From Ruminococcus sp. Phil11 (lineage in GTDB: Bacteria; Bacillota; Clostridia; Oscillospirales; Ruminococcaceae): a stretch of 64,000 bases of DNA. Every line of letters begins with the position of its first letter. Position 1 is the stretch's first letter. The stretch is from positions 1 to 64,000 of the forward strand of contig MSGZ01000040.1 of assembly GCA_001940925.1 (NCBI GenBank). Reading direction: 5' to 3'. Shown one piece after another: positions 10,370 to 26,001 of this stretch. The notes under the pieces are model-generated. The model was not told where the DNA came from. It saw only the letters and a program-made list of their open reading frames with translations, and made no database searches. The translations under genes and the position numbers were made by a program.

Positions 10370-11635
10370 ATGAACCATACACAAAAGCGCGTCCTGAGCA
10401 TTCTTGCGGCTGCCGCAATGACCTGCGGTGCCCTGCCGCAGAGCACCCCGCTGTCCCTGCTTCAGCCTGTACTCACTGCCAACGCCGAAGCATCCGCATA
10501 CGAGGATTTTTCGTATGAAGAAAAGGAGGACGGCGGCATCACGATCAAAGAGTATATAGGCAGCGATGACGCGGTCGAGATTCCTGCGGAGATTGACGGA
10601 AAACCCGTGACCAAGATCGAAGACTGGGCTTTCTTCAATAAGCAGATATCGTCCGTTCTGATTCCGGACAGTATCACAACGATCGGAAGCCAGGCATTCA
10701 ACAGCTGCACCAAACTCAAAGAAGTCGTTCTTCCGGGCTACATCACTGCCATCGCGGACGGATCATTCTCCGGCTGTTCCAGCCTGACAAAAGTAATCAT
10801 GCCGGGCTGTGTGAAAAGCATCGGTATGAACGCATTTTCAAGCTGTACGGAACTGAAGGATCTTCATATACCGGAAAGCGTGACAAGCATCGGCGGAAGT
10901 GCATTCAGGGATACTGCATGGCTGAAGAAAAAGCAGGAGGAAAACCCGCTTGTCATTGTCAATCATATCCTGGTCGACGGCAGTACCTGTAAAAATGAAG
11001 TAGGGATTCCGGAAGATGTGACAAGTATCTGTGACCTTGCATTCAACGGATGCAAGACAATCACATCGGTTTTCATTCCGTCCGGTGTTGAAAGCATCGG
11101 CAGTGATGCATTTTATAACTGCAGCGCTCTGAAGTACATTGACATGCAGGATGGCCTGAAAAAAATCGGAGATAATGCATTTTACTGCGCAGGACTTGAA
11201 AATATCAGAATTCCGGACACTGTAACAGAAATCGGAACTGCTGCATTCTTCGGATGTGAGAATCTGCAATTTGTTGAACTGCCGGAAAATCTGAAAGGAC
11301 TCAAATCCGGCCGTATGGGTACATTCCAGGGCTGCACTTCTCTTGAAACGATCGAGATCCCGGAAAGCGTGACCAATATCGGCGTAATGGCATTTGCGAC
11401 CTGCACACTTCTGGGAAGAGTGATCATTCACGGCAGCACGACTACGATCGGAGCCAGAGCGTTCTACGGCTGTGCACAGAATCTGACACTCTGCGGATAT
11501 GCCGGTTCTCCTGCACAGACCTACGCATCGCAGAACGATCTGAACTTCAAAGAACTGAATGCGAAGTTCTCCGGCGTTTCCCTGACACTCACCGATGATC
11601 TCGGCCTGAACTTCTTTGCGACCGGCGTGCCGTAA
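10370..11635 (+). pseudogene. secreted BspA-like leucine-rich repeat protein, N-terminal part (gene interrupted by mobile element)
   Basis: 421 codons. A signal peptide (residues 1-40, ending ALTANAEA-like) is followed by about ten LRR_5/BspA-type repeats with the pattern xxIPxxVTxIGxxAFxxCxxL. These proteins sit on or leave the cell and bind other cells, host or substrate. The frame then reads LTLTDDLGLNFFATGV, the start of a C-terminal domain common in Ruminococcus surface proteins, and stops after one foreign codon. The domain continues at 25081. Codon 420 is GTG (11627-11629), exactly the shared core of the inserted element. Strong AAAGGAGG site. The truncated product may still be secreted. 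Confidence 0.92.
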
Positions 11636-11651
11636 GCAACACCTTATCAAC
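11627..11651. other. attL of the mobile element
   Basis: Host ACCGGC, then core GTG (11627-11629), ten element bases, then the arm CACCTTATCAAC (11640-11651). Joined with attR it gives a 48-bp near-symmetrical attP. Confidence 0.8.
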
Positions 11652-11669
11652 GATTATTTGGTAAAGTTT

Positions 11670-11685
11670 GGACGGTTGGTTTTAC
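11670..11685 (+). repeat. 16-bp sequence inverted at the recombinase promoter
   Basis: GGACGGTTGGTTTTAC, whose exact reverse complement lies at 23426-23441 just upstream of the serine recombinase. Possibly a binding site for an element-encoded regulator. Confidence 0.7.
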
Positions 11686-11710
11686 AATAAAACCGAAAGG
11701 ACTAACACAA

Positions 11711-11941
11711 ATGATTGATGCGTTGTACAACTATAGGCAGGGCGATATTCACGCCGCCGAGTTCTCCGATGAGTTTAACAAGCTCTGTATCCCCTTTGAA
11801 AATTCGCTTAACGAGGATCAGATTGATGTGTTCCACAAAATCCTCGACTGCGTGAGCAATACTGCCGCCGCTGAGATGAGAGCTGCATACAAGGTCGGCT
11901 TCAAGGACGGTGCAACTATGATGCAGGAGATTCAGGACTAA
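11711..11941 (+). CDS. small acidic protein of unknown function at the left end of the element
   Basis: 76 residues, mostly helical by composition, no membrane segment. The tail NTAAAEMRAAYKVGFKDGATMMQEI resembles short DUF6809-like proteins found in clostridial mobile elements; I am not certain of the family. AAAGGA site 10 bases before ATG 11711, and a clean terminator follows, so this is a real monocistronic gene. It lies immediately beside attL, where accessory or excision-related small proteins are often found, but no function can be assigned. Confidence 0.7.
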   Translation: MIDALYNYRQGDIHAAEFSDEFNKLCIPFENSLNEDQIDVFHKILDCVSNTAAAEMRAAYKVGFKDGATMMQEIQD

Positions 11942-11961
11942 TATATTCATATCATAAGGAA

Positions 11962-12010
11962 AGGGCTATGTCCTCCGTGACCGTGTACGGAAGGCATAGC
12001 CCTGTTTTTT
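11962..12010 (+). terminator. intrinsic terminator of the small left-end gene
   Basis: AGGGCTATG (11962-11970) pairs with CATAGCCCT (11995-12003); an inner stem TCCG/CGGA is also possible; then GTTTTTTCTTTT. Confidence 0.8.
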
Positions 12011-12133
12011 CTTTTCAGATGCTTATTCAGTTTTCGTCTGCAAGGTTCACTATCTTCTTGCCTTGTTTTTTCTCATAGCGTATCATGGCATATGCTCCGA
12101 CGCTTACTTAATATATAACCGCAAAAATTGACT

Positions 12134-13009
12134 TTACTTCTGATCGCACTTCCCGCAGTTACTGCACCCATTGCAGGTCGGACGCATACCACAGGTTGCA
12201 CAGCGTTCACGGAACACAGGTTTATATCTGTCCTCCTCGGTGATCGGATAACCCCAACTATCGTATAGATCAAAGTGGATCGGCTTTCCCTGAAAACTCA
12301 TTCCTGATTTGTGCGCCTGCTGACTTTGGATACTGCCTTCGAGCTTGTAGAGCCTTCCGTCCTTGACGAACCGCCTGCCCGTACCGCAGAACACAAAGGT
12401 CACATTGTTGTCCACGCACTCCTGACGTAACAGCTTTACCCAGTCGAAATGGCAGGGACGAGAGCCGTCATAATTCTCGCCGTCACAGAGGACTTGCTCG
12501 ATTTGTCCTGTTTCGAGATATTTCCGCATACTGACCTGCCCAATAAATGGCGCACACATAACGCCCTTGTGCTTGAAAGGCAGCTCAAGCAGTATGGGGA
12601 TACGCTCGTCTGCACGCCGCTGATTCTCGGCGGTGACGTTGAAAAAGATATTGTCCCAGCCCTCGCCCCAGTCCTTCGGCAGATGTTCGGCTACTCGTTC
12701 GGGGCGCTTTGTCAGCAGAAAGAACACCACATCGCTACGTATCTTCATCAGCTCCCACGCTTCCTCACGCCACTCATCTGCCTCGGCAAGAAAGAAATCC
12801 GAGGTCATACAAACTCTGATCTGCTCTCCGCTTTTTATCTTGTAGTTTCCCTTGCGGTCTTTCTGTATCGGGTAGTTGAAGCCTGCCTTCGTGCGGTATA
12901 TATGCGAGCCGTCCTGATCTCTCAGCTTGTCGAGGAAGTACATATAGCAATGGTCACAGCCCTCGCTTTTCTTGATACACCCGTGCCAGGGGTTCCAGAT
13001 ATCGTGCAT
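12134..13009 (-). CDS. DUF5131 (phage Gp37/Gp68-like) protein
   Basis: 291 residues. N-terminus MHDIWNPWHGCIKKSEGC followed by DHCYMY gives a CX6CX2C triad at C11, C18 and C21, reminiscent of a radical SAM iron-sulfur site; the fold in this family is thought to be radical-SAM-like. MTSDFFLAEADEW and LLTKRPERV are family-typical blocks. The C-terminus (CATCGMRPTC..CSNCGKC) holds two more CX2C pairs, a likely second metal site. The family occurs in phages and mobile elements with no settled function; DNA or RNA modification is often suspected. Its start at 13009 adjoins the YjbR-like stop at 13011, so they are co-transcribed. Confidence 0.85.
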   Translation of the reverse strand: MHDIWNPWHGCIKKSEGCDHCYMYFLDKLRDQDGSHIYRTKAGFNYPIQKDRKGNYKIKSGEQIRVCMTSDFFLAEADEWREEAWELMKIRSDVVFFLLTKRPERVAEHLPKDWGEGWDNIFFNVTAENQRRADERIPILLELPFKHKGVMCAPFIGQVSMRKYLETGQIEQVLCDGENYDGSRPCHFDWVKLLRQECVDNNVTFVFCGTGRRFVKDGRLYKLEGSIQSQQAHKSGMSFQGKPIHFDLYDSWGYPITEEDRYKPVFRERCATCGMRPTCNGCSNCGKCDQK

Positions 13010-13010
13010 A

Positions 13011-13775
13011 TTATTTTCCTTTCAGCGCAGCACTCAGGCTATTCGGAACTCCTCTCGGACCTCTGACAGCAAAAATGCCATATTCAGATTTTAACCGTTC
13101 AAATGTAAACTGCTCAGGCTTGTATTTTTTTATCAGTTTTATCTTCATCAGCTTGGTGATCGTAAGTTCAGACGAATGATAATCATATGGAATATCCACT
13201 TCAGTGACCTTGCACTTGTAAAGAATAGCCGACACAGGTGCGCCGACATACAGAAAAACAGTATCATTTTTCTTGATTCCTGCGCCCTGCTTCCAGTCGA
13301 TCACATCAGCGTCATCGAAAGCATGAACGATGTCATAATACTTCGGATTCGCAGGAACAAGCCACTCCTTCGGCGAGCGCATTTCCTGCTTTTTCTTTTT
13401 TGAAGCAGTCACCTCAAAGCTCATATCTATCAGCCGTGTGATCTCGTCAAGGGGAACTGTACCGTCCAGCACTACCGAAAGCCAGTTTCCACGGCTGATG
13501 TGGTAGCCGATATAATATCCCTCCTGCCGGATCAGCAGGTCACGCAGCAGCATATCACCGAGCTTGACATTGAGCACATCGACAGCGCCCGATTTTTCAG
13601 TGTCGATCTTCTCATAGGTGATATTCATGATAAGGGCATACCATTTCTCGTTATCCTTGTGGCGGAGTATCGCATAATCAGGGAACTTCGCCCATAGATA
13701 CTCGGGTTTGGAGCCGTATTTCTTTTTTGCGTAGGCGAACACCTCGTCCCGCAAGGAATCGTCAATCGTTTTCAT
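13011..13775 (-). CDS. MmcQ/YjbR-like domain fused to a PUA/EVE-like domain
   Basis: 254 residues from ATG 13775 (an earlier frame runs through the HxlR gene and is not credible). Residues 1 to about 115 are MmcQ/YjbR-like: LRDEVFAYAKKKYG at the start, then SRGNWLSVVLDGTVP and IDMSFEVTA. A lysine-rich hinge leads to a C-terminal domain, residues 130-250, with PKYYDIVHAFDDADVIDWKQG and NDTVFLYVGAPVSAILYKCKV, which looks like the EVE/PUA-like fold that reads modified bases. Its start overlaps the HxlR stop by 14 bp. Together with DUF5131 it may act on nucleic acid, but this is inference. Confidence 0.8.
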   Translation of the reverse strand: MKTIDDSLRDEVFAYAKKKYGSKPEYLWAKFPDYAILRHKDNEKWYALIMNITYEKIDTEKSGAVDVLNVKLGDMLLRDLLIRQEGYYIGYHISRGNWLSVVLDGTVPLDEITRLIDMSFEVTASKKKKQEMRSPKEWLVPANPKYYDIVHAFDDADVIDWKQGAGIKKNDTVFLYVGAPVSAILYKCKVTEVDIPYDYHSSELTITKLMKIKLIKKYKPEQFTFERLKSEYGIFAVRGPRGVPNSLSAALKGK

Positions 13776-14130
13776 GCTTGAACCCCCAGACCATGATCGC
13801 ATAGAAGATCGGCTGTAAATCACGCCCCTTTTCGGTAAAGGAATACTCCACATGGGGCGGTATCTCGTTGAACTGCTCACGGTGGATAAAGCCGTCTGCT
13901 TCAAGCTCCTTCAGTGCCGTTGAAAGCATACTTCCTGTGATCTCAGGGAGAGCCTTTTTCAATTCTCCATAGCGCACAGAATCGTGCATACAAAGCTCGT
14001 AAAGTATCTGCGTTTTCCATTTTCCTTGTAATTTCTGCAAAAGCGGTGTCACCGGGCAGTTGCCCTTTTCGGTCACGATGCCCTCCTTGACCTTTACAAG
14101 ATATTCCTCATAGCTCATGTATTCTTCCAT
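13762..14130 (-). CDS. HxlR family transcriptional regulator
   Basis: 122 residues. Winged helix with the HxlR pattern: one Cys near the N-terminus (NCPVTPLLQKLQGKWKTQIL, Cys25), then SVRYGELKKALPEITGSMLSTALKELEADGFI. The lone cysteine is where several HxlR members sense electrophiles or oxidants. It is divergent from the hydrolase/adenylation operon, with 124 bp between, and is its probable regulator. It also leads the YjbR-like/DUF5131 pair on the minus strand. AAGGAGG precedes ATG 14130. Confidence 0.92.
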   Translation of the reverse strand: MEEYMSYEEYLVKVKEGIVTEKGNCPVTPLLQKLQGKWKTQILYELCMHDSVRYGELKKALPEITGSMLSTALKELEADGFIHREQFNEIPPHVEYSFTEKGRDLQPIFYAIMVWGFKHEND

Positions 14131-14183
14131 TGTAAGTCCTCCTTGGTATGGTCTTTGATACTATGTATGTATTTTTATACTAC

Positions 14184-14212
14184 TTGACATATGTTTCTGT
14201 ATATAGTATAAT
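14184..14212 (+). promoter_or_regulatory. sigma-A promoter of the hydrolase/adenylation operon
   Basis: -35 TTGACA (14184-14189), 17-bp spacer, -10 TATAAT (14207-14212), in an AT-rich divergent region shared with hxlR. The leader is about 40 nt. No clear long palindrome; several short GTAT/ATAC pairs could serve the regulator. Confidence 0.85.
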
Positions 14213-14254
14213 ATAACTACTACAAAAAGTCAAGAGGTTAAGGAGGAATTTGCA

Positions 14255-14929
14255 ATGGAAGTCAGAAAGTTTACGGCAGGCGGAAAGGAAGTCACGCTCT
14301 ATCCTGCAAGCATAAGTGACCGTCCGCTGATCGTGCTGAACACATACACGGGTAATGGTAAATCAGTAGCAGAGGAGCTTGGAAAGCTGAATGCGCCAGA
14401 CCACAATCTGCTTGTGATCGGGAATCTGAACTGGGATCACGATATGTGTCCGTGGGAATGTCCTGCACTTTCAAAGAACGACACGCCCTGCACAGGCGGT
14501 GCGGACGAATATCTCGGTCTGCTGCTATCGGAGATACTTCCGATGGCAAAGAAAATGCTTGTCGGACAGCCCACATTTACTGCGATAACAGGTTATTCAC
14601 TGGCAGGACTGTTCGCTCTGTACACACTCTATAAGACCGATGTGTTTGATCGTGCGGCAAGTATGTCGGGTTCGCTGTGGTTTCCCGATTTCAAGAACTA
14701 TATACTTACACACGAAATGCTCCGCAAGCCCGATAAGCTCTATCTTTCCCTCGGTGACAAGGAAGCAAAGGCTCGCCAGCCGCTTCTGAAAACGGTGCAG
14801 GAGAATACTGAATCTATAGCGGAGCATTACCGCGCACTTGGGATAGATGTGACATTCGAGATGAATGAAGGCAACCATTTCAAAGAGCCGGCGCTGCGTT
14901 CGGCTAAAGGAATAGCGGCGATACTGTAA
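14255..14929 (+). CDS. alpha/beta-fold esterase-like hydrolase
   Basis: 224 residues, COG2819-like alpha/beta hydrolase related to enterochelin esterase-type enzymes. Nucleophile elbow GYSLAG at 113-118 (Ser115), a likely acid in the SLGDKEAKA strand, and catalytic His in NEGNHFKEP near residue 207. No signal peptide, so cytoplasmic. First gene of a four-gene run; the adenylation enzyme starts 10 bp downstream. In such a setting it could release or trim an aminoacyl ester or thioester product, or act as a thioesterase. The substrate is unknown. Confidence 0.85.
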   Translation: MEVRKFTAGGKEVTLYPASISDRPLIVLNTYTGNGKSVAEELGKLNAPDHNLLVIGNLNWDHDMCPWECPALSKNDTPCTGGADEYLGLLLSEILPMAKKMLVGQPTFTAITGYSLAGLFALYTLYKTDVFDRAASMSGSLWFPDFKNYILTHEMLRKPDKLYLSLGDKEAKARQPLLKTVQENTESIAEHYRALGIDVTFEMNEGNHFKEPALRSAKGIAAIL

Positions 14930-14939
14930 GGAGGGCAAT

Positions 14940-16412
14940 ATGGGAATTACGATATACGGAATTTTTCAGAAAACGGTACAGGAACATAAAAATGCTCCTG
15001 CAATTATCGAGAATGACAGAACGCTGACATTTGGCGAGCTGTCGAACATGGTGGATATGATTGCGGACAGCTTTCCCGACAACACCCATGCTGTGGGCAT
15101 CGTCATGCGGCACAGGGCGGAAATGATCGCATCTATCCTTGCGGCGCTGAAATCCGGTGCGATGTATGTTCCTGCCGAGCCGACCTTTCCCACAGGGCGT
15201 ATCCGGTACATGATGAATGAAGCAGGAGTGGACTTTATCGTGACGGAAATGCAGTATGCTGATAAGCTGAAAGGTTTTCAGCAGATCTACTCTGACTGTT
15301 CGATCTGTACCGCATCACCTGACAGCAGGGGCAGAGTTTACAGCCAGTCTCCGGACGGTCTTGCTTATGTTCTATACACATCGGGGACAACAGGCCGCCC
15401 GAAGGGTGTTTCAGTAACGAACAAAAACGTCTGCCATTATGTGAGAGCCTTTGAAAATGAGTTTCACCCAAAGCAGGGCGACATCATGCTCCAGTATTCC
15501 GTCTGCTCCTTTGATATTTTTGTTGAGGAAGTGTTTACAAGTCTGCTGAACGGGGCGGCACTGGCGATACCGTCCGATGAGGATAAGACAGATATACATT
15601 CTCTCATGGATTTTGTTGAGCGCCATAAGATAACTATGCTTTCGGGCTTTCCCTATCTGCTGGCGGAGATGAATCATCTTCCCGATATACCGTCCTCTCT
15701 TCGCTTGCTCATCAGCGGCGGAGATGTGCTGAGGGGGCATCATGTCAGCAATTTATTAGAGAAAGCAGAGGTCTACAATACCTACGGTCCGAGCGAAACA
15801 ACGGTATGTGCATCCTATTACCGCTGCCGTGACGGGCAGGTGCTTGATGACGGCACATACCCCATAGGCAAAGCGGTTCTCGGCACAGAGATAAAAATAC
15901 TTGACACGGACGGGAATGAAGTGCCGGACGGCGAAACGGGCGAGATCTGCATTTTCGGCGGCGGCGTTTCAAACGGCTATATAGGAGACCACAACGAAGA
16001 AAACAAGGCGTTTGTCAGACTGCCCGACGGCTCTGTGATGTACCGCAGCGGCGACCTCGGATATTATCTTCCCGACGGAAATATCGCATTTCTGCACCGA
16101 AAGGATACACAGATCATGATCTACGGCAAGCGCGTGGAGGTCATGGAGGTGGAGTCAAAGCTCTATCAGTGCAGCGGTGTCGAGCAGGCGATCGTTCGTG
16201 CATTTACGGACGAGGAAGGGCTGTCGTACATGATCGCCTATATCGTACCGAGTAACAGGGAGCTGAGGGTTTCACAGGTACGCAGAGAGCTGAGTGAAAA
16301 CCTCACGGATTTCATGATACCCGAATTTATCGTGAAAATGCCGCAGATACCCCTTAACACCAACGGAAAACCGGATATGACAAGAATGCCTGTTGTCATG
16401 AAGGAGTGCTGA
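14940..16412 (+). CDS. stand-alone amino-acid adenylation enzyme (NRPS A-domain type, no carrier domain)
   Basis: 490 residues, exactly one adenylation domain. Core motifs: A3 YTSGTTGRPKG (146-156), A4 with the amino-group-binding Asp192 in SFDIFVEEV, A5 NTYGPSETT (280-288), A7 YRSGDLGYY (368-376), A8 QIMIYGKRVEVMEVE, and the A10 lysine in NTNGKPDM near 475. The Asp at the PheA-235 position argues for an alpha-amino acid. There is no condensation, carrier or thioesterase domain, and no separate carrier gene is visible. The activated amino acid may go to a small acceptor, a distant carrier, or coenzyme A. GGAGG precedes ATG 14940. The GNAT gene overlaps or abuts its end. Confidence 0.9.
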   Translation: MGITIYGIFQKTVQEHKNAPAIIENDRTLTFGELSNMVDMIADSFPDNTHAVGIVMRHRAEMIASILAALKSGAMYVPAEPTFPTGRIRYMMNEAGVDFIVTEMQYADKLKGFQQIYSDCSICTASPDSRGRVYSQSPDGLAYVLYTSGTTGRPKGVSVTNKNVCHYVRAFENEFHPKQGDIMLQYSVCSFDIFVEEVFTSLLNGAALAIPSDEDKTDIHSLMDFVERHKITMLSGFPYLLAEMNHLPDIPSSLRLLISGGDVLRGHHVSNLLEKAEVYNTYGPSETTVCASYYRCRDGQVLDDGTYPIGKAVLGTEIKILDTDGNEVPDGETGEICIFGGGVSNGYIGDHNEENKAFVRLPDGSVMYRSGDLGYYLPDGNIAFLHRKDTQIMIYGKRVEVMEVESKLYQCSGVEQAIVRAFTDEEGLSYMIAYIVPSNRELRVSQVRRELSENLTDFMIPEFIVKMPQIPLNTNGKPDMTRMPVVMKEC

Positions 16413-16414
16413 AT

Positions 16415-16879
16415 ATGGAAATAAAGATCAGAAGGGCGGAACTGCCGGAGCTTTCTCTTATCATGGAGTGGCGTATGAGAGTGCTGAGGGAGGTGTTCTG
16501 TCTGCCGGAAGATACGGATATGACGGAGCTTTACTCTGAAAATGAGCAGTATTACCGTGAGCATTTGCGAGACGGCACACATACTGCTGTATTTGCCTGT
16601 GCCGGAGAACGTATCATCGGCTGCGGTGGCATCTGCTATCAGACAGAAATGCCATCTCCCGATAATCCAAACGGAAAGTGCGGCTATCTTATGAACATCT
16701 ATGCCCTGCCGGAATACCGCAGAATGGGTGTAGGCAGGGAGATCGTTTCGTTTCTGATAAAAGATGCACAATTAAAAAATGTTAAAAAGCTGTCGCTTGA
16801 AAGCTCCGAAATGGCGGAAAAGCTGTACCAAAGTACAGGCTTTTTAAGAAACGAACATTTTTATCTGAAGTATTTGTGA
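16415..16879 (+). CDS. GNAT family N-acetyltransferase
   Basis: 154 residues. The acetyl-CoA loop is visible as LPEYRRMGVGREIVSFL (motif A, RxxGxG/A), after a beta strand YLMNIYALP, and the C-terminal ESSEMAEKLYQSTGF is the typical motif B. I prefer ATG 16415, with AAGGAG upstream, to a GTG at 16406 that overlaps the adenylation gene. It could acetylate the amino acid (product) handled by its neighbour or act as self-protection. Fourth-position radical SAM gene begins 9 bp later. Confidence 0.85.
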   Translation: MEIKIRRAELPELSLIMEWRMRVLREVFCLPEDTDMTELYSENEQYYREHLRDGTHTAVFACAGERIIGCGGICYQTEMPSPDNPNGKCGYLMNIYALPEYRRMGVGREIVSFLIKDAQLKNVKKLSLESSEMAEKLYQSTGFLRNEHFYLKYL

Positions 16880-16888
16880 GGTGCTGAT

Positions 16889-17779
16889 ATGGTAATAAAG
16901 GAAATAGAAGTCAAAGGTATTATGACCAAATCGAATCTTCCTGTCTCAGACTATTCGGTCAATCCCTATGTAGGCTGCGCACACGCCTGTAAATACTGCT
17001 ATGCCAGCTTTATGAAGCGCTTTACTGATCACCCCGAACCATGGGGAGAATTTGTTGACGTAAAGAACTGGAAGCCCATACAGAAAGCTGAAAAATATGC
17101 AGGCAAGGAGGCGTTTTTCGGCTCTGTAACCGACTGCTACCAGCCGTGTGAAGCAAAGTATATGCGCACACGTCTGCTGCTCGAACAGCTTCAGGGAAGC
17201 GGTATTTCCATAAGTATCGCCACAAAATCAGACCTTGTTCTGAGGGATTTAGATTTGATCAAGACCTTTCCGAATGCAAGGGTATCTTTTTCAATAAATA
17301 CTCTTGATGAGAAGTTTCGCAGTGAAATGGACAAAGGCGTGAGCATTGAACGCAGACTCGATGCAATGCGGCAGCTTTACGAAGCAGGTATCAAGACAAC
17401 TTGCTTTATTTCACCAATATTCCCCAGAATAACAGACCCGGTCGCTATCATAGAAACGGCGAAAAAGCATTGCAATCTTGTATGGCTCGAAAACCTTAAT
17501 CTCCGGGGAGATTACAGAGTTCGTATTCTGGACTGGATAAATGAAAACCACCCTGAGCTGAATGACTTGTATCATAACATCTACAGTAAAAAAGACCGCA
17601 GCTATTGGAGTGAGCTTGATACAAAGCTGCGTGAGTTTACGGCACGGGAAGGTATGACATATCTGCGAGACGACGATTCACGCATGAGCAGTTTCGGTGA
17701 GCCGCCTGTGGTGGTAAACTATTTCTTCCATGAAGAAGTGAAAAAATCTGCAAAAAATAAATCCAGTAACAAAACATAA
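16889..17779 (+). CDS. SPL-type radical SAM protein
   Basis: 296 residues. The radical SAM cluster motif is CAHACKYC (C30, C34, C37) within NPYVGCAHACKYCYASF, as in spore photoproduct lyase-like/Rv2578c-type proteins (COG1533). The SVTDCYQPCEAKY block (around residues 80-92) is also characteristic of this group. C-terminal tail is lysine-rich. Binds a 4Fe-4S cluster and S-adenosylmethionine; substrate unknown. It is the last gene of the hydrolase-adenylation-GNAT run and ends before the terminator at 17912. Whether it acts in the same pathway or is a passenger cannot be told. Confidence 0.88.
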   Translation: MVIKEIEVKGIMTKSNLPVSDYSVNPYVGCAHACKYCYASFMKRFTDHPEPWGEFVDVKNWKPIQKAEKYAGKEAFFGSVTDCYQPCEAKYMRTRLLLEQLQGSGISISIATKSDLVLRDLDLIKTFPNARVSFSINTLDEKFRSEMDKGVSIERRLDAMRQLYEAGIKTTCFISPIFPRITDPVAIIETAKKHCNLVWLENLNLRGDYRVRILDWINENHPELNDLYHNIYSKKDRSYWSELDTKLREFTAREGMTYLRDDDSRMSSFGEPPVVVNYFFHEEVKKSAKNKSSNKT

Positions 17780-17911
17780 GACAAACTTTCAGTATATCAA
17801 TAGCCCGTAGTCTATTGGAACACCTGCAAACCGTTCCGTACAAGTCCAATTCAGCATTTTGGAGCATACCACAATCGGCACAAACCCTATTGGAACTGAA
17901 CACAAACCGCA

Positions 17912-17957
17912 AGCTCTCGGAAATGCTCTGCAAGCGTTTCTGAGGGCTTTTTCTTTT
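17912..17957 (+). terminator. terminator of the cargo operon
   Basis: AGCTCTCGGAAA pairs with TTTCTGAGGGCT (two G-U pairs), followed by TTTTTCTTTTC. The 130 bases before it carry CTATTGGAAC twice (17813 and 17888) and no gene. Confidence 0.65.
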
Positions 17958-18028
17958 CAGCGGTTAGTTTTCCGCTCCGCAGGGGTGGAGGGCGCTGTGG
18001 GGCTTCTCCGTTCGGCTGACGGGTATTA

Positions 18029-18622
18029 TCAAGCAGAGGACGGCTCGGTGATGCCGTGAGTGGCTTCATACTCCCTGACACGGCGGTAAAAGGTATTTGC
18101 CGACAAGCCCATTCTCCGCATAAAGTCCCTGCCTGTGATGTTCTTCGACTTCCATTCCCCATAAAGCTGACCGAACCTTGTCCAGTCGATTTCAATGGGT
18201 TTCCGTCCCGTATACTTGCCCTGTGTCTTGGCGATCTCGATGCCCTCACGCTGTCGCTGTTTGAGCTGTTCACGCTCCAACTGAGAGAGGGCGGCGAACA
18301 CGGTCAACATGAATTTGCCTGACGGAGTATCGGTGTCGATATTCTCCTTGTGGCTGACGAGAGTAACGCCCTTTTCCGTGAGTGTGTCGATGATGTTCAG
18401 CAAATCCTTTGTGGAACGTCCCAGACGGCTGATACTCTCGATGTAGAGGGTATCTCCTTCACGCACATAGTCAAGCATAGCGTGAAGCTGTGGGCGGTCT
18501 GCGTTTGCTCCCGACATCTTCTCGGAGAAGATGCGGTCAACCTGATAGTCGCACATGATCTCCTGCTGACGGGCTGTCTCCTGATGCTCCGTGGAAACAC
18601 GGATATAACCAATTTTGCTCAT
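18029..18622 (-). CDS. serine resolvase/invertase
   Basis: 197-residue small serine recombinase. N-terminal catalytic domain begins MSKIGYIRVSTEHQ with the nucleophile Ser10; SISRLGRSTKDLL and LSQLEREQLKQRQREGI follow; a C-terminal helix-turn-helix (about 150-190) binds the site. It probably resolves multimers of the circular form or a cointegrate, since the large serine recombinase handles integration. It begins 15 bp past the relaxase stop in the same direction, forming a mobC-relaxase-resolvase unit. Confidence 0.92.
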   Translation of the reverse strand: MSKIGYIRVSTEHQETARQQEIMCDYQVDRIFSEKMSGANADRPQLHAMLDYVREGDTLYIESISRLGRSTKDLLNIIDTLTEKGVTLVSHKENIDTDTPSGKFMLTVFAALSQLEREQLKQRQREGIEIAKTQGKYTGRKPIEIDWTRFGQLYGEWKSKNITGRDFMRRMGLSANTFYRRVREYEATHGITEPSSA

Positions 18623-18637
18623 ACATAAATCCTTTCT

Positions 18638-20050
18638 TTATTCAAGCTGATTTTTCTTTCTTTTTGCAGCTTCTTCATTCTGTAAATACCGCTGAACGGT
18701 TCTCTGACTGTCACGCTTCTGCTGTATCTGCCGTGCAAGCCTGTCCGCTTCTTTTTTGTAGAAATTGTACTCGGCTGAACTCTTGGCGTATTGCTCACGG
18801 AGCTTGGTCTGCATTTCCTTCAAATACTCAACAGTAGGGATTTTCTTGTCGGGAAACATCTCTTTTACCTTAGCAGAATATTCCTTGTACTGCTCCAATT
18901 CATAGGCACAATTCTTGGCATATTTCTTTTGTTCTCTGCCCGTAAGCGAACGGTACTGCTGATTAAATTCCCTGTATTTGAAAAGCTCCGAAAGAACAGG
19001 TAACTGCTCCTCAATCTCGTCAAACTTCTTTTTGGCTTCTTCCATATCGCTCAATGCTTTCATACGCTTTGCAAAGGCGGTATGAGCTGCACTCTCCAAT
19101 TCTTCAAGGGTAGAATTACTTGCGGTCATCTCGTTGAGAGCCTTGCTCGCCGCTTTCATATTCTCACGGTCTGCCCAGTTCTGCAAGCCCTGAGACTGCT
19201 GAAATCTCTCCGCTGTTGTACGGATAATCTTGACTTTCGGGCTGTGCGACATTTGGTATTTATAGCTCTCGATACGCCGCACGATCTGCTTGCTCTCGTA
19301 GAAGTAGCCCAGCGTTTTTGCACGGGTGAATTTTGCCCTCGGATTGCGTTCTTTCTGCTCGGCAAGCATAAATTTCAGGTCGATCTTGTGGTCGGGATTG
19401 TAGTCCACAAGTATGCCGTACTCGGCACACTTGGCAAGGAAATCCGCAAAGTCCTCACTGACCTTGATAACCTCGTCAATGGTTCGTTTAAGCTGTTCTT
19501 TCCATGACATATTCTGCTTGTCAAGCTCCCATTCCCAATGGCTCTTGCCCTTAGACAGATGAGGATTTTCTATCGTCGAAAGTCCGTGCTTTCTGCATAA
19601 CTCGTCCGATACCTGACGGAGCTTTGTCCACGCTCTTTCGGGTATCTTTCCCTGATTATGTTCCGTTTCAAAAGTCTTGCCCGTATAGAAATTTACGTTG
19701 TTTACTATGATGTGGTTATGGATATGTTCATGGTCTACATGGACGGCAAGCACATATTGATACTCGTCATTAAAAAGTGCCTTGCAAAGTTCCTGCCCGA
19801 TAAGCAAAGCCCGTTCGGGTGTGACCTCACCGGGGGCGAACGATTGTATTATGTGCTGGCACTCGCTTCGGCTTCGTCCTGTACCGACTGACTGCCTGAT
19901 GTTTCTGAATTGTTCTGATGCTCCACATGGAGTAGATACGCACAAGTTGCTAACAACATATTTGCCGTCTGCGGTTTTGTCTGGGTTGCAGATATAAGCA
20001 ATTGCACCGTATGTTCCCGTGTGGATCGTATGGATACGAGTAATCGCCAA
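18638..20050 (-). CDS. MobA/VirD2-type relaxase
   Basis: 470 residues. Nicks the element's transfer origin and leads the DNA strand in conjugation. Motif III histidines are clear: HVDHEHIHNHIIVNNV (104-119). The N-terminus MAITRIHTIHTGTYGAIAYICNPDKT is typical of clostridial mobilization relaxases, with the catalytic Tyr probably in that region. The C-terminal third is a long charged, coiled-coil-like region. The start codon is TTG at 20050 with AGAGG nearby, and the gene overlaps mobC by about 200 bp. Needs a helper ICE for the secretion channel. Confidence 0.92.
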   Translation of the reverse strand: MAITRIHTIHTGTYGAIAYICNPDKTADGKYVVSNLCVSTPCGASEQFRNIRQSVGTGRSRSECQHIIQSFAPGEVTPERALLIGQELCKALFNDEYQYVLAVHVDHEHIHNHIIVNNVNFYTGKTFETEHNQGKIPERAWTKLRQVSDELCRKHGLSTIENPHLSKGKSHWEWELDKQNMSWKEQLKRTIDEVIKVSEDFADFLAKCAEYGILVDYNPDHKIDLKFMLAEQKERNPRAKFTRAKTLGYFYESKQIVRRIESYKYQMSHSPKVKIIRTTAERFQQSQGLQNWADRENMKAASKALNEMTASNSTLEELESAAHTAFAKRMKALSDMEEAKKKFDEIEEQLPVLSELFKYREFNQQYRSLTGREQKKYAKNCAYELEQYKEYSAKVKEMFPDKKIPTVEYLKEMQTKLREQYAKSSAEYNFYKKEADRLARQIQQKRDSQRTVQRYLQNEEAAKRKKNQLE

Positions 20051-20601
20051 ACTTCCTCTAACCTCTCTTTCATATCGGCAATATCTTCATCGTAAAGTTT
20101 GCCGCCTTTGTTGACACGGTGGGCTACCTGATTGAACGAATTGGAGATAGACGAAATATACCTTGCTATCTGCTTGATGTCCTCGGTATCTTCCTCCACA
20201 TTCATCACGGTGAGTGCAGAATAACGGCAAAAATCGCCCCTGCTTCTGAACGATGTTTCCGCATATCTGCGGTTGATCGCTTCAAGCTCCATGTCGTTCA
20301 CTCGGAATGTGATAAGGTGCTTGCGTACCTCGCTCGGCTCGGTGTCCTGCGGTGGTGATTCGCCCTCGGCATTTTCGGGCGGTTCGGTGAAATCAACCTC
20401 GCCCGTTTCGGTGACTTCAAGCATTGGAACAGGCTCGGCATCGGTGTCCTCGGCGGTTGTCTGCTCGTCACTTTCGGACTGCAATTCTTCCTGCATTTCG
20501 TCCGCATAGGTGTGGGCAAGTTCTTCCGCAAGTTCCTCGACTTGCTTGTGTTTGAACAGCTTTGCAAGGAAACCCTTTTCGGGCTTTTTGAATATTGACA
20601 T
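19849..20601 (-). CDS. MobC-like relaxosome accessory protein
   Basis: 250 residues from ATG 20601 (AAAGGAG site). A basic N-terminus (KKPEKGFLAKLFKHKQ) and an acidic low-complexity linker to about residue 90 precede a MobC/ribbon-helix-helix-type domain: ITFRVNDMELEAINRRY through SSISNSFNQVAHRVNKGG, the MobC hallmark. It would help the relaxase at oriT. The last 65 residues lie in the 202-bp overlap with the relaxase gene in another frame. They have low-complexity composition, so the functional part may end before the overlap. Confidence 0.87.
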   Translation of the reverse strand: MSIFKKPEKGFLAKLFKHKQVEELAEELAHTYADEMQEELQSESDEQTTAEDTDAEPVPMLEVTETGEVDFTEPPENAEGESPPQDTEPSEVRKHLITFRVNDMELEAINRRYAETSFRSRGDFCRYSALTVMNVEEDTEDIKQIARYISSISNSFNQVAHRVNKGGKLYDEDIADMKERLEEVWRLLVSIRSTREHTVQLLISATQTKPQTANMLLATCAYLLHVEHQNNSETSGSQSVQDEAEASAST

Positions 20602-20624
20602 TGTGTCTCCTTTCTGTATCTCGG

Positions 20625-20665
20625 TCGGCTGTGCCGACCTCTCAGGGGTCTTAGGGGAATTTTCC
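20625..20665. repeat. two short palindromes ahead of mobC
   Basis: GGTCGGC/GCCGACC with a 3-nt loop, then AGGGGAA/TTCCCCT. They lie in the mobC leader next to the long palindrome at 20677 and belong to the candidate oriT region. Confidence 0.5.
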
Positions 20666-20676
20666 CCTGACAAGCC

Positions 20677-20717
20677 GTATAAAGTTTACGATTTTCCATA
20701 ATCGTAATACTTTATAC
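20677..20717. repeat. long inverted repeat, candidate oriT core
   Basis: 17-bp left arm GTATAAAGTTTACGATT and 18-bp right arm AATCGTAATACTTTATAC, complementary with one extra base, around a 6-nt loop TTCCAT. It lies directly upstream of mobC/relaxase, where IME origins of transfer usually are. I do not recognise a known nic sequence. Confidence 0.55.
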
Positions 20718-20737
20718 CGTGCTTGTGAAAATTGATC

Positions 20738-20799
20738 GGGCGTTCCACGCCCTCACTTGTTTTTCGCCGTTCTACGGCGTTTTTTCACGCTTCTGCGTG
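20738..20799. repeat. three tandem hairpins in the candidate oriT region
   Basis: GGGCG-TTCCA-CGCCC (20738-20752), CGCCG-TTCTA-CGGCG (20765-20779, then six T) and CACGC-TTCT-GCGTG (20786-20799). Regular spacing and similar loops suggest protein binding or transcription stop. No gene is visible from 20602 to 21237. Confidence 0.55.
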
Positions 20800-21150
20800 T
20801 TTGGAGCTATGCGATTTCTCTCTGTCTCGCACGGCTCTGAGAGTATTTTACCGGGGTTCGGCGCAGTTATGATGCTGGGTGGGCGGCAGTCTGGTGAAAC
20901 CTTCCGTTCGGCTCTCCCTGAGCCGATTTTGAATGTCGATATGCTTATCGTTACATTCAAATTTTTGCCCTGTCTGACTGCCTATGAAAAACACCCTTCA
21001 CTTATCTACCGTGAAATTTGAGGTTTCGGGCATGATTTTCTGAAAAGTTTACAATTTGTTCATGACGATTCTCCCTCTTGCATAGTTTCAACACGGGATT
21101 TCTGTTGATGATGACAATGATTTTAGAGGGTGGATTTCTCGGAAATGGGA

Positions 21151-21179
21151 TTGCATTTTCGGGGGCGGTGTGTTATAAT
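21151..21179 (+). promoter_or_regulatory. promoter of the epimerase-like gene
   Basis: -35 TTGCAT (21151-21156), 17-bp spacer, -10 TATAAT (21174-21179), about 60 bp before the start codon. Confidence 0.7.
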
Positions 21180-21237
21180 TTAGGAGCAGAAGCAAATATT
21201 TAGCTTGCTTCGTAAAATACAGCTTTTGGAGTTTTTT

Positions 21238-22104
21238 ATGAATATTCTGATTATTGGCGGTACAAGATATTTTGGTATGCCTATGACAAACGATCTGATT
21301 GGCAAGGGGCATAATATCACAATCGCTACAAGAGGGAAAACACCTGACCACTATGGTGATTCAGTCTCAAGAATTATATTTGACAGAGCTGACGAAAACA
21401 GTATAATCAAATCGTTCAGCGGAAAGTATTATGATGTAATAATTGATAAGATAGCTTACTCCTCAAATGATGTGAAACGGCTTTTAGATCATGTCCGTTG
21501 TGGGAAGTATATTCTAATGTCAAGCTCGGCAGTCTACAAGGATATTCACGTCGATACAAGTGAGGGAGATTTCTCGGCAGAGATACATTCTCTCAAATGG
21601 TGTGAGCGTTCCGATTATGATTATGCAGAGGTCAAACGGCAGGCGGAATGTGCTGTTGTCCAGCAGTTTCCTGACCAGCATTATGTAGCTGTTCGTTATC
21701 CCGTTGTTATTGGCAACACTGACTATACGAAACGACTATATTATTACATTGAGTGCATACAGAATGAAACGCCGATGTTTATAGATGATATGGATTCGAG
21801 AATTAGTTTTATCCATGAGGACGATGCTGGTTTATTCTTATCGCATTTAGTTGATACAGAAATATCGGGAGCGATCAACGGCTGTTCAGACGGTGACATC
21901 TCACTCAGGGAAATGATTTGTTATATTGAAGAAAGGCTCAATAAAAAAGCAATCATTACGCCAAATGGAACACCCGCACCGTATAACGGTTATCCCGAAT
22001 ATGCAACCTTGAATACGAGCAAGGCAAAGCAAACTGGATTTTCTTTTTCAGGTATTAAGGACAGATTTTATGAGACAATAGATCACTACATTCAATCACT
22101 CTGA
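21238..22104 (+). CDS. NAD-dependent epimerase/dehydratase family protein (extended SDR)
   Basis: 288 residues. Rossmann NAD-binding motif at the very start, MNILIIGGTRYFGMP (GGTxxFG form), then LMSSSAVY as the catalytic Ser region and YAEVKRQAE as YxxxK. The conserved VRYPVVIGNTDYT strand follows. This is the group of NAD-dependent epimerases that starts with GGTRFFG, related to mRNA-binding/plastid CSP41-like proteins; sugar-nucleotide substrates are typical but unproven. More AT-rich than its neighbours. It sits inside the mobile element between the transfer region and the recombinase module, with its own promoter, so it is cargo. Confidence 0.85.
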   Translation: MNILIIGGTRYFGMPMTNDLIGKGHNITIATRGKTPDHYGDSVSRIIFDRADENSIIKSFSGKYYDVIIDKIAYSSNDVKRLLDHVRCGKYILMSSSAVYKDIHVDTSEGDFSAEIHSLKWCERSDYDYAEVKRQAECAVVQQFPDQHYVAVRYPVVIGNTDYTKRLYYYIECIQNETPMFIDDMDSRISFIHEDDAGLFLSHLVDTEISGAINGCSDGDISLREMICYIEERLNKKAIITPNGTPAPYNGYPEYATLNTSKAKQTGFSFSGIKDRFYETIDHYIQSL

Positions 22105-22323
22105 TTACAACTGAATATCCCAAACCTATGCAGAGCAACACCAGCTCTGCATTTTTTATGCCCATTTCAAAATTCCCCATAACAATTTCACGATAAGAAA
22201 AGTTTTATGGCGCACTCAACTTCTTGCGCAATGCGAATAGACTTCCCCCCGAAAGTGCGCTATAATTTTAGTGTGGGGCTGAGTAGTTCGGCTCGACTAA
22301 AAATTCAGAATGGTGGTGATGAT

Positions 22324-22653
22324 ATGGCTACAACTTCTATCGCTGACAAGCTGGCGAAGCTCGAAAAGAAGATCGCCAAGCGACAGGCAACGATCGCAGA
22401 GGAGCAGAAGCAGCTCGAAAAGGAAATGGAGGAGTACAACAAGCTCTACCTGACAGCTCTTGCAAGCAAGTATAAGCTGAGTGGCAAAGACCTGTTTTCC
22501 GCTATCGAGCGTGAGCATGATCAGCTTGAAAAGCTCCGTGACGGCGGTATGTCTGATTCGGATATTGATAGTCTGACGGACAGCTCTCCTGCGGATAAGG
22601 ACAAGGCTACTCTGTATGAGGATTCTCCCCGTACTCTGTTTGACGAGGATTGA
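22324..22653 (+). CDS. small coiled-coil protein of the recombinase module
   Basis: 109 residues. Residues 5-50 are a heptad-rich, Lys/Glu/Gln coiled coil (KLEKKIAKRQATIAEEQ), then a short helical domain (SGKDLFSAIEREHDQLEKL) and an acidic tail. Small proteins of this form precede serine recombinases in many clostridial elements; function unknown. ATG 22324 with a GGTGGTGAT site. A TATAAT at 22260-22265 suggests a promoter for this gene and the three downstream. Family not named with certainty. Confidence 0.7.
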   Translation: MATTSIADKLAKLEKKIAKRQATIAEEQKQLEKEMEEYNKLYLTALASKYKLSGKDLFSAIEREHDQLEKLRDGGMSDSDIDSLTDSSPADKDKATLYEDSPRTLFDED

Positions 22654-22669
22654 TGAAAGGGGGCTTTGA

Positions 22670-23155
22670 ATGAGTGAATACATTTACAAGGTTGGGAACG
22701 ATTATGAGAGTGACAATAAAGAGTATGTCGCTCTCAATACAGACAAAGGACAGCAGATAACGGTTGCCCTCGCCGCAAGCGGTATCCCGTTCAAAGGGCG
22801 TTTCGACAAAGAGCGTATGCTGTTCAATTATGACGGCATTTACAAGGAGTCCGTTGATGAAATTATCGCAAAATTCACCTCGGACGAGTATGCCGAACAG
22901 CGTAATGAGTTAGCGGAGCATAAGGGCGATGACTGCCTTTATTTTCTGCCTGCCGTCGCAAAGCTCCTGCGTATGACGGAGGGTACACTTAGGCGCAGAC
23001 CTCTTGACATTCAGCTTGCCGTCTGCAAGCGGTATGTCGATAACTGGTACTGCGATACTTACACGATACAGCATGAGCTGAAAGATGCGATGATGCTGAT
23101 TACCAAACTCGAAATGACAGACAGCGAGAAAGAGAAAGCTGTCGGAAAGGACTAA
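22670..23155 (+). CDS. mobile-element accessory protein of unknown function
   Basis: 161 residues, no membrane segment. Reads as two parts: an N-terminal beta-rich segment (YVALNTDKGQQITVALAASGIPFKGRF) and a helical C-terminal segment with LRMTEGTLRRRPLDIQLAVCKRY. I do not recognise the family. AAAGGGGGC site before ATG 22670; 16 bp after the coiled-coil gene and 3 bp before the next small gene, so one transcript leading to the recombinase. Its constant place in such modules hints at control of excision or transfer, which is inference. Confidence 0.65.
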   Translation: MSEYIYKVGNDYESDNKEYVALNTDKGQQITVALAASGIPFKGRFDKERMLFNYDGIYKESVDEIIAKFTSDEYAEQRNELAEHKGDDCLYFLPAVAKLLRMTEGTLRRRPLDIQLAVCKRYVDNWYCDTYTIQHELKDAMMLITKLEMTDSEKEKAVGKD

Positions 23156-23158
23156 AAT

Positions 23159-23347
23159 TTGAATACAACATCTGCCGTAGAAAAGAGAGAGAAGGCAGTT
23201 GACTATGTATCTGATGAGGGTATCAAGGTGAGAGTTTCTTACCCTGATGATGTTCCCGAAACGATCAGACAGCAGAAGATCAACAAGATGTACGATATTT
23301 TCCTCGGTGCAATGCGCCGCAACGGAACAAAGGAAACAACTGAATGA
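23159..23347 (+). CDS. 62-residue protein with TTG start, ahead of the recombinase
   Basis: Starts at TTG 23159 after GGAAAGGA; no ATG is available until codon 41. Sequence contains VSDEGIKVRVSYPDDVPETIRQQKINKMYDIF, probably a small strand-helix fold. The codon use and tight spacing (3 bp after the previous stop) support a real gene. No family recognised. Confidence 0.6.
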   Translation: MNTTSAVEKREKAVDYVSDEGIKVRVSYPDDVPETIRQQKINKMYDIFLGAMRRNGTKETTE

Positions 23348-23390
23348 TCTGGCAATCTGCCGAAAAATGATTACAGTTACAAGAACGCTG

Positions 23391-23419
23391 TTGCAATTTT
23401 CGGACGGTTGCGCTATGAT
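23391..23419 (+). promoter_or_regulatory. promoter of the large serine recombinase
   Basis: -35 TTGCAA (23391-23396), 17-bp spacer, -10 TATGAT (23414-23419). GGACGGTT/AACCGTCC (23402-23409 and 23434-23441) forms an inverted repeat around the -10, a plausible operator. Confidence 0.7.
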
Positions 23420-23425
23420 ATAGAT

Positions 23426-23441
23426 GTAAAACCAACCGTCC
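23426..23441 (-). repeat. 16-bp sequence inverted at the element's left end
   Basis: GTAAAACCAACCGTCC, the exact reverse complement of 11670-11685. It overlaps the right half of the operator-like repeat at the recombinase promoter. Confidence 0.7.
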
Positions 23442-23462
23442 AATTGCAAACGCAATTGGAGG
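23440..23462 (+). promoter_or_regulatory. hairpin covering the recombinase ribosome-binding site
   Basis: CCAATTGC (23440-23447), loop AAAC, GCAATTGG (23452-23459). The right arm takes up the first two bases of the GGAGG Shine-Dalgarno (23458-23462), so folding would limit translation of the recombinase. Confidence 0.6.
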
Positions 23463-23468
23463 TCAACA

Positions 23469-25025
23469 ATGAAAAGAACAACGAAAACAAATGACGGTAT
23501 CACGGCTATCTATGTACGCCGATCTGTCAGCGACAAGGATAAGGGCAACAACAGCTTGTCCATTTCCGCACAGAAGGAGGAATGCGTCCGCTTTGTAGGT
23601 GACTGCGAGTATCGTATCTATTGCGACGATGGAAAGTCGGGCAAAGATGTGATGCACCGTCCCGCATTTATGCAGATGATGAGCGATGCCCGTGAGGGAC
23701 TTATCAGCAGAATTATCGTGAAAAAATATGACCGTTTCAGCCGTAATATGCGTGAGTATCTTAACATTACGGACGAGCTTGACCGCTACGGTGTGACCGT
23801 TTACTCCCTCTCCGAACCGTTCAATACGGAGACAAAAGAGGGGCGTATGATGCGGAACAATCTGCTGAATTTTGCGGAGTTTGAGCGTGAAACAATCGCC
23901 GCAAGAGTGGCAGATGCGTTCAATACTAAAGCAAGAGAAACGGGCTTTTATCAGGGCGGAAAAGTGCAGTTTGGCTACACTCCCGAAAGAAGAACCATTA
24001 ACGGCAAGACAGGCTCGGTGCTTGTTCCCTCGGAGAATGCAGAAGCGGTGCGTGTGGCATATGACTTATATCAGCACCCCGAAAATTCTCTGACTGATAT
24101 TATCCGCTACATGACGGAGAACGGTATCAATGCTTCAAGACCGACACCACGCACAAAAACAGGCATTTCCAATCTTGACAGGTCGCACCTGAGCCGTATC
24201 CTTGAAAATCCGCTGTATGTAAGGGCGAATAAAGATGTGTACCGCTATTTTCTTTCCAGAGGATATGAGTTGCTTGACGATATTGAAGCCTATGACGGTG
24301 TTCACGGGCTGTTCGTTCACGCTGGCGGTGATGATACACACTTCGTCAAGGTAGCCTACCATGAGGGGCTTGTGGACGGCGATGTGTGGCTGAGAGTGCA
24401 GGACAGAAAGTCGCACCAGAGTAAATTCCCGAACAACGGCAAGGCTATGAACTCTTGGCTTGTGGGTATGGTGAAATGTGCCTGTTGCGGTTATGCGATG
24501 CACTTCAATCATTCCGTTAGAAATGAGGGAAAGAAAGTATATTATCGCTTTCTTGACTACGGCAAATATACGCTGAACGGCTGTCCTACTCCTCCGATTA
24601 AGATGAAGCCGAAACAGGTCGAGGACGCTGTGCTGACGGAAATGAAAAAGCGTATCGAACAGCTCAACATTGAAAAGCATGAGGAAAGCAAGCCCGATGC
24701 CGAAACGGAAAGTATCAAAACTGAAATCGTCCGCCTTGACAGCGAAATTCAGAAACTTATGGAAAAGCTCGCTGATGCCGATACCGTTCTGTTTGACTAC
24801 ATTCAGAAGCGTGTGAGTGCCTTGCACGAACAGAAGTCGGAGCTTGATAAAAAAATGCAGACCATGTGCCGTAAGCGTAAGGCGATCGACACAAAGCCTT
24901 TGGAAGAACCTATGAAGCAGTGGGATAAACTGACGGTGCAGGAAAAGCACGATCTGGCGGCAGCTATGATTGATGTGGTGCTTATTTCCGATGAAACAGG
25001 TATTGAGGTGAAATTCAGCATTTGA
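23469..25025 (+). CDS. large serine recombinase (integrase of the element)
   Basis: 518 residues. N-terminal resolvase domain with nucleophile Ser19 in IYVRRSVSDKDKG and the FSRNMREYL/FAEFERETIAARV blocks. Next is a recombinase domain (about 160-290) with NPLYVRANKDVY, then a zinc-ribbon-like segment (KCACCGYAMHF near 337), a coiled coil (about 395-470) and a short tail. It integrates and excises the element at a 2-bp core. It ends 52 bp before attR, the usual arrangement. The catalytic and DNA-binding parts look intact, so the element may still move. Confidence 0.95.
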   Translation: MKRTTKTNDGITAIYVRRSVSDKDKGNNSLSISAQKEECVRFVGDCEYRIYCDDGKSGKDVMHRPAFMQMMSDAREGLISRIIVKKYDRFSRNMREYLNITDELDRYGVTVYSLSEPFNTETKEGRMMRNNLLNFAEFERETIAARVADAFNTKARETGFYQGGKVQFGYTPERRTINGKTGSVLVPSENAEAVRVAYDLYQHPENSLTDIIRYMTENGINASRPTPRTKTGISNLDRSHLSRILENPLYVRANKDVYRYFLSRGYELLDDIEAYDGVHGLFVHAGGDDTHFVKVAYHEGLVDGDVWLRVQDRKSHQSKFPNNGKAMNSWLVGMVKCACCGYAMHFNHSVRNEGKKVYYRFLDYGKYTLNGCPTPPIKMKPKQVEDAVLTEMKKRIEQLNIEKHEESKPDAETESIKTEIVRLDSEIQKLMEKLADADTVLFDYIQKRVSALHEQKSELDKKMQTMCRKRKAIDTKPLEEPMKQWDKLTVQEKHDLAAAMIDVVLISDETGIEVKFSI

Positions 25026-25054
25026 AAAAGTGCGGAATTTCGGTATTTTTTAGT

Positions 25055-25080
25055 GTTGATAAGGTGATGCGTAGGGTGTG
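25055..25080. other. attR of the mobile element
   Basis: Arm GTTGATAAGGTG (25055-25066, complement of the attL arm), eleven element bases, core GTG (25078-25080), then host ACCGAAGCA. Confidence 0.8.
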
Positions 25081-25908: not shown

Positions 25909-26001
25909 ATGAAAGAAATTTATATTACCCCTGAAGCTGAGATCATTGTATTTGAAGCTGAGGATATAATCACCGACAGTTGGGAGATTACCCCCGCTTA
26001 A
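25909..26001 (+). CDS. 30-residue acidic peptide downstream of the LRR gene
   Basis: ATG 25909 after AAGGAG with ideal spacing; reads MKEIYITPEAEIIVFEAED and ends DSWEITPA. Short peptides beginning MKxxYxxPExExIxF and containing (E)DIIT occur repeatedly in gut Clostridia, often behind secreted proteins; I know of no assigned function. It was probably the second gene of the LRR operon and is now cut off from that promoter by the mobile element. Confidence 0.7.
   Translation: MKEIYITPEAEIIVFEAEDIITDSWEITPA

Follow-up and report, generated by a model that had tools for sequence, protein, structure and literature searches.

The stretch analysed here (the window, 64,000 nucleotides of contig C40, MSGZ01000040.1) comes from the 3.7-Mb draft genome of Ruminococcus sp. 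Phil11 (46 contigs, 94.6 % complete) and includes a gene for a leucine-rich repeat (LRR) protein that is divided by a 13,451-bp integrative and mobilizable element (IME). The features at the two junctions, in window coordinates, are:

10370..11629, + strand: N-terminal part of an LRR_5 (BspA-type) gene, 420 codons, product probably secreted; the frame stops at 11635 within the element
11615..11651, + strand: attL, with host half-site TTTGCGACCGGC, core GT at 11627-11628 and element half-site with arm CACCTTATCAAC
11629..25079, + strand: IME, 13,451 bp
11640..11651, - strand: 12-bp inverted-repeat arm GTTGATAAGGTG, left end
25055..25066, + strand: 12-bp inverted-repeat arm GTTGATAAGGTG, right end
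25055..25091, + strand: attR, with element half-site, core GT at 25078-25079 and host half-site GACCGAAGCAAA
25081..25893, + strand: C-terminal part of the split LRR protein, 270 codons, no Pfam match

A first-pass annotation had described the LRR protein as ending one foreign codon after ...LGLNFFATGV, with the missing domain beginning TEANSEYYH at 25081, and the open reading frames (ORFs) bear this out: the first (10370-11635) reads a single further codon (CCG) before its stop, and an open frame restarts at 25081 and continues through 25893. The predicted continuous frame of 690 codons on removal of the insert (420+270) also agrees with what is found in homologs. When the two halves were searched separately, they matched abutting stretches of one protein, in the same register and with no gap, in L004, L009, L005 and L006; in L004, from a congener (genome G024), residues 1-420 of the N-terminal part correspond to residues 65-497 (61 % identity) and residues 1-270 of the C-terminal part to 498-770 (66 % identity). 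Of the 13 homolog frames examined, these four alone span both halves completely, and all four are uninterrupted and free of the element; they come from other species or, in the case of L009, represent an intact paralog within the same genome (contig C36), and in the other nine frames the N-terminal part is partial or absent. At the DNA level, comparison with G024 revealed a single locus that takes in the upstream region, the gene and a small peptide gene, with 13.5 kb extra in the window. Two observations had been named in advance as speaking against a split gene. One, an uninterrupted homolog that fails to align across the junction, was not encountered among the four. The other, separate halves with no element, was seen once and in part, as contig C7 of G024 carries an orphan C-terminal part with neither an N-terminal part nor an adjoining element; this looks like a remnant and is outweighed by the four contiguous homologs. 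Because the homologs are contiguous, the 12-bp inverted repeat is perfect and the junction fits the target motif described below, we accept that one LRR gene has been split.

The arms at the two ends are perfect copies (two matches allowing up to one mismatch, against 0.19 expected; none of 100 shuffles reached two), as expected of attP arms. The left-end sequence, allowing up to two mismatches, occurs 27 times in 19 of 396 family genomes, counting the window, and a control pattern was not found. The base preceding GT differs among these left-end copies, as does the base following it at right ends; hence, the crossover was placed at GT. Since the search pattern prescribed the GT core for the right half-sites, its constancy there is no evidence, and it is the variable neighbouring bases that are informative. 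The GTG that the first-pass annotation reported at both edges is present (11627-11629 and 25078-25080), but it consists of the 2-bp core GT and one chance G, and we rejected a 3-bp repeat as evidence in its own right because its last base is not constant at other right junctions. Similarly, the boundaries originally given, 11630-25080, are equivalent to ours, though given the GT core they are better written as 11629-25079. Both ends of one element were paired only for the window and for Ruminococcus albus 7, and two left-end patterns had no match in L105-L120, which are loci of close relatives. No tRNA was found in the 64-kb window.

A dyad target motif, TnGCnnnnGGn-GT-nCCnnnnGCnA, was obtained from half-sites of related elements outside the SNF2-like helicase gene that is their commonest target (17 left and 11 right). 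The left half-sites represent left ends from across the family, whose large serine recombinases (LSRs) were mostly not identified, and the right half-sites represent elements with LSRs at 66 % identity or more, together with the broken LSR of G008:C126. Counting followed the removal of five tandem left ends, the helicase sites (four left, 12 right), an exact duplicate and the window site; L117, in another SNF2-domain gene, was kept. The sites are partly dependent, in that L107 and L112 share one flank, L064 and L092 are the same place, and so are L079, L093 and L170. The LRR site fits 11 of the 12 fixed positions of this motif. Scored as two half-sites it reaches 19.08 and, among the 6,203 GT positions in the window, only attL (19.11) is higher, with the next, at 18327, scoring 15.0. 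The matrix used (20 left, 21 right) excludes the window site, tandem ends, duplicates and an oddly aligned left end (L083), and includes helicase sites and a nested resolvase site (L064). This last belongs to a sibling element in genome G432 (L064/L092) that is nested in the resolvase gene at residue 99, matching the window site at 18327, a match that is not a fully independent test given that the L064 left half-site sits in the matrix. The unoccupied homolog in G024 retains a site scoring 16.5. The LRR site is a strong secondary attB.

The positions of related elements were examined in 83 right flanks (79 of the 80 genome_contigs loci, L182 being cut off, plus four others), 41 of which match the SNF2-like helicase within 200 bases of the LSR stop. 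Thirty of the 41 helicase alignments end at residues 1091-1094, at the TGT|P codons, the rest ending elsewhere in the protein or running past it, and in four of the 27 left flanks the match to this helicase starts at its residue 1090. In Pfam this protein passes the ResIII cut-off and falls under that of SNF2-rel_dom, the SNF2 name following plasmid annotations; its relatives are found on 1,285 plasmid records, 671 of them typed as conjugative, all at <60 % identity. At the 19 sites where LSR identity is about 76 % or more (L105-L120, G000:C42, the partial LSR of G042:C28, and R. albus 7), ten elements lie in the SNF2-like helicase gene and an eleventh, L117, in the other SNF2-domain gene. Other target genes encode a pectate lyase, a GH26 mannanase, a DUF6076 protein, FtsX (permease), a CWB2 (cell-wall-binding) protein, a TraG-type ATPase, a resolvase and, labelled by eye, a MATE-like protein, and two of the ten flank ORFs scanned had no Pfam match. 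The genomes with close LSR relatives include those of R. albus and Ruminococcus flavefaciens as well as gut metagenome genomes. The most similar LSR (99 % over the best segment) is in R. albus AR67, a genome where the element occupies the helicase gene and the LRR C-terminal part has no homolog; a sibling (LSR 92 %) lies elsewhere in the Phil11 genome, on contig C42; and on plasmid pRUMAL01 of R. albus 7 a relative with a frameshifted LSR (90 %) interrupts an LRR-dockerin gene and lies in the opposite orientation. Elements whose LSRs are about 90 % identical occupy the helicase gene, two different LRR genes, the MATE-like gene and others, and hence more than three unrelated targets, which is the multi-target criterion of PMC10083194, applied here without repeating the clustering. 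LRR genes as a preferred target were considered and rejected, since an LRR gene lies at the junction in one of the 83 right flanks (that of R. albus 7) and LRR_5 is very frequent (152 matches in the genome). With LRR genes so common, two LRR hits are not remarkable.

Several further features of the family were observed. Five of the 27 left ends (L069, L077, L079 = L170, L082 and L086) adjoin the apparent right end of another family element, and the elements seem to abut head to tail with the junction sites serving as new targets. More distant LSRs (L133, L152, L164, L167, L168, L171 and L179) adjoin the same helicase gene but meet it at different residues, which gives the impression of repeated adoption of the gene as a target. 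Near the sibling in R. flavefaciens XPD3002 (L114:4683-4782) there are two 32-nt repeats, 97 % alike and 68 nt apart, which we take to resemble CRISPR repeats.

The element runs from a DUF6809 gene through cargo, a small resolvase, a relaxase, a MobC-like protein, an epimerase-like gene and three small proteins to the LSR at the right end. Its genes, and the peptide gene that follows the LRR gene, are:

11711..11941, + strand: DUF6809 small protein, beside the left end in many related elements
12134..13009, - strand: cargo, DUF5131 protein
13011..13904, - strand: cargo, YjbR-domain protein
13762..14130, - strand: cargo, winged-helix regulator, RrpA/RrpB-like, under the NCBIfam cut-offs
14255..14929, + strand: cargo, putative esterase
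14940..16412, + strand: cargo, amino-acid adenylation enzyme, TIGR01733 over cut-off
16406..16879, + strand: cargo, probable GNAT acetyltransferase, labelled by eye, with a 40 %-identity relative in L097
16889..17779, + strand: cargo, radical SAM mobile pair protein B, TIGR04470 over cut-off
18029..18622, - strand: small serine resolvase, with the attB-like site at 18327 (codon 99)
18638..20050, - strand: MobA/VirD2-type relaxase, PF03432
19849..20673, - strand: MobC/NikA-like accessory protein, MobC (PF05713) over cut-off, NikA-like just below
21205..22104, + strand: cargo, NAD-dependent epimerase-like protein, in a slot unmatched in the relatives compared
22207..22653, + strand: recombination-module protein, present in several relatives
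22670..23155, + strand: recombination-module protein shared with the closest relatives, a candidate directionality factor or regulator
23159..23347, + strand: 62-aa protein, encoded immediately ahead of the LSR in many related elements, a candidate directionality factor
23469..25025, + strand: LSR, 518 aa, full length
25909..26001, + strand: 30-aa peptide gene behind the LRR gene, kept behind homologs

The LSR, judged intact by the first-pass annotation, is full length with no internal stop, and includes the three expected Pfam domains (Resolvase, Recombinase and Zn_ribbon_recom); its stop lies 52 bases ahead of the core. The relaxase and MobC-like genes are also full length, and the loss of transfer functions typical of regulated gene-splitting excision elements is not seen. 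No type IV secretion family was matched in the 15 element ORFs scanned, not each of them in both libraries and with the GNAT and smaller ORFs left out. An element with its own LSR and paired attL and attR, relaxase and mobilization genes, and no conjugation machinery among the ORFs scanned is an IME. In eight related loci compared, the mobilization and/or recombination modules are shared, in blocks mostly 85-91 % identical, and most of the cargo is unmatched. A phage origin was rejected: of 15 relatives in viral_contigs, three have 50 % identity or more, and the top phage record, at 56 %, is a fecal fragment without annotation, whereas among plasmid records there is one above 80 %. In the NCBIfam scan, mobile pair protein A is hinted at only by the DUF5131 protein, which matches it weakly (E 0.0019).

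The peptide gene stands directly downstream of the split gene, as had been noted before, and peptides of the type MKEIYxxPExEIIxFxAEDVITxS are encoded directly behind proteins with the same C-terminal domain at all six homolog loci checked (L059, L226, L227, L058, L013 and L014). The protein with this domain and the 30-aa peptide are possibly a conserved pair. Further downstream (26176-26538) is an ORF that, by eye only, resembles a fragment of an IS21 IstB-type ATPase.

We regard it as very probable that an IME with a multi-target LSR entered the LRR surface-protein gene by recombination of its attP with a strong secondary attB there, and that the insertion is most likely incidental. With the IME in place, the protein is truncated after the LRR region and lacks its C-terminal domain, and the downstream peptide gene is probably parted from its promoter. 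Excision through attL x attR, carried out by the same LSR and perhaps aided by a directionality factor encoded upstream of the LSR, would reunite the two halves exactly, and on this point we concur with the first-pass annotation. Serine integrases regenerate attB at any site, and restoration of the frame is therefore expected from their chemistry whatever the site; the exit of the element should mirror its entry and restore the LRR gene. Three findings weigh against this account. The motif is not enriched, the genome containing 11 matches (up to one mismatch, one place on both strands), which include attL and an uninterrupted helicase gene on contig C39, versus 64 for the reversed control. The splitting of a second LRR gene by a close relative, in R. 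albus 7, hints at a non-random choice, though such genes are very common. Finally, both gene halves stay open, as a retained switch would also predict.

The insertion could instead be a permanent knock-out, in which the element can no longer leave and the LRR gene decays as a pseudogene, and this we consider possible but rather unlikely. It would be in keeping with the intact paralog on C36 and with a C-terminal part that presumably has no signal peptide of its own, and the pairwise ratio of nonsynonymous to synonymous substitution (dN/dS) against G024 is higher in the C-terminal part (0.64) than in the N-terminal part (0.44). However, against the other three homologs the dN/dS of the C-terminal part is 0.25-0.30, its 270 codons have no stop or frameshift, and the LSR is full length.

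Frequent exit of an ordinary mobile element from a high-scoring attB in a dispensable LRR gene, leading to a mixed population with and without the protein and peptide in the manner of phase variation, seems improbable to us. Also of very little probability in our estimation is the reversible regulatory switch that the first-pass annotation had envisaged, akin to the sporulation excision elements, where the host would retain the element in the LRR gene and excise it to turn on protein and peptide as for sigK or comK. Exact frame restoration, the full-length LSR and the two open halves would suit such a switch, as would the precedent in PMC8987985, where prophage excision restores split genes such as comK and sporulation genes. 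Nevertheless, the mobilization genes remain, related elements are spread over numerous unrelated genes, none of the four full homologs is occupied, and the LSR of the R. albus 7 LRR case is frameshifted. Hence, the switch reading is unsupported and a dedicated switch was rejected; the insertion is most likely an ordinary one and not host-selected. An assembly chimera of unrelated DNA, conceivable in a draft assembly, can be dismissed almost entirely, as the inverted arms and target motif fit the exact junctions and both halves match one gene.

The window element belongs to an already known kind, the gene-disrupting IME with a multi-targeting LSR. In streptococci, serine-integrase IMEs disrupt the snf2, maff2 and traG genes of integrative and conjugative elements of the Tn5252 superfamily, as described in PMC5357655 and PMC5704250, and those IMEs likewise have a relaxase, a single serine integrase near one end, very short repeats and a disrupted target gene. 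The commonest target here is also an SNF2-like helicase gene, a likeness by name that derives from plasmid annotations; unlike the streptococcal IMEs, the elements considered here are found in other hosts and the window copy is in a chromosomal surface-protein gene. The authors of PMC5357655 hypothesise by analogy with prophages that an IME may be excised when its target gene is needed. As with the multi-targeting LSRs of PMC10083194, closely related LSRs use several unrelated target genes with a common short attB motif. Unlike in that clade, the core is GT, one target (the helicase) dominates, and Pfam matched no DUF4368 in the LSR, a domain common there and not obligatory. The comK prophage and sporulation elements (PMC8987985) and the fdxN element resemble the window element in having a serine recombinase of the same superfamily whose excision rejoins a gene, as would be predicted here. 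They differ from it in that the window element keeps mobilization genes and is not fixed at one locus, and the XisF (fdxN) model scores 123.9 on its LSR against a cut-off of 375. We found no paper joining Ruminococcus, serine recombinase, leucine-rich repeat and integrative element, a result that describes our search and not what is in print at large.

At present the chief value of the case is that the insertion is well resolved and its attB defined. It indicates that an IME lineage most often found in one helicase gene widespread on conjugative plasmids also enters chromosomal genes for surface and fibre-degrading proteins, and that a single short dyad motif is the route into them. If excision were frequent, ordinary IME traffic would vary the surface proteins of such bacteria reversibly.

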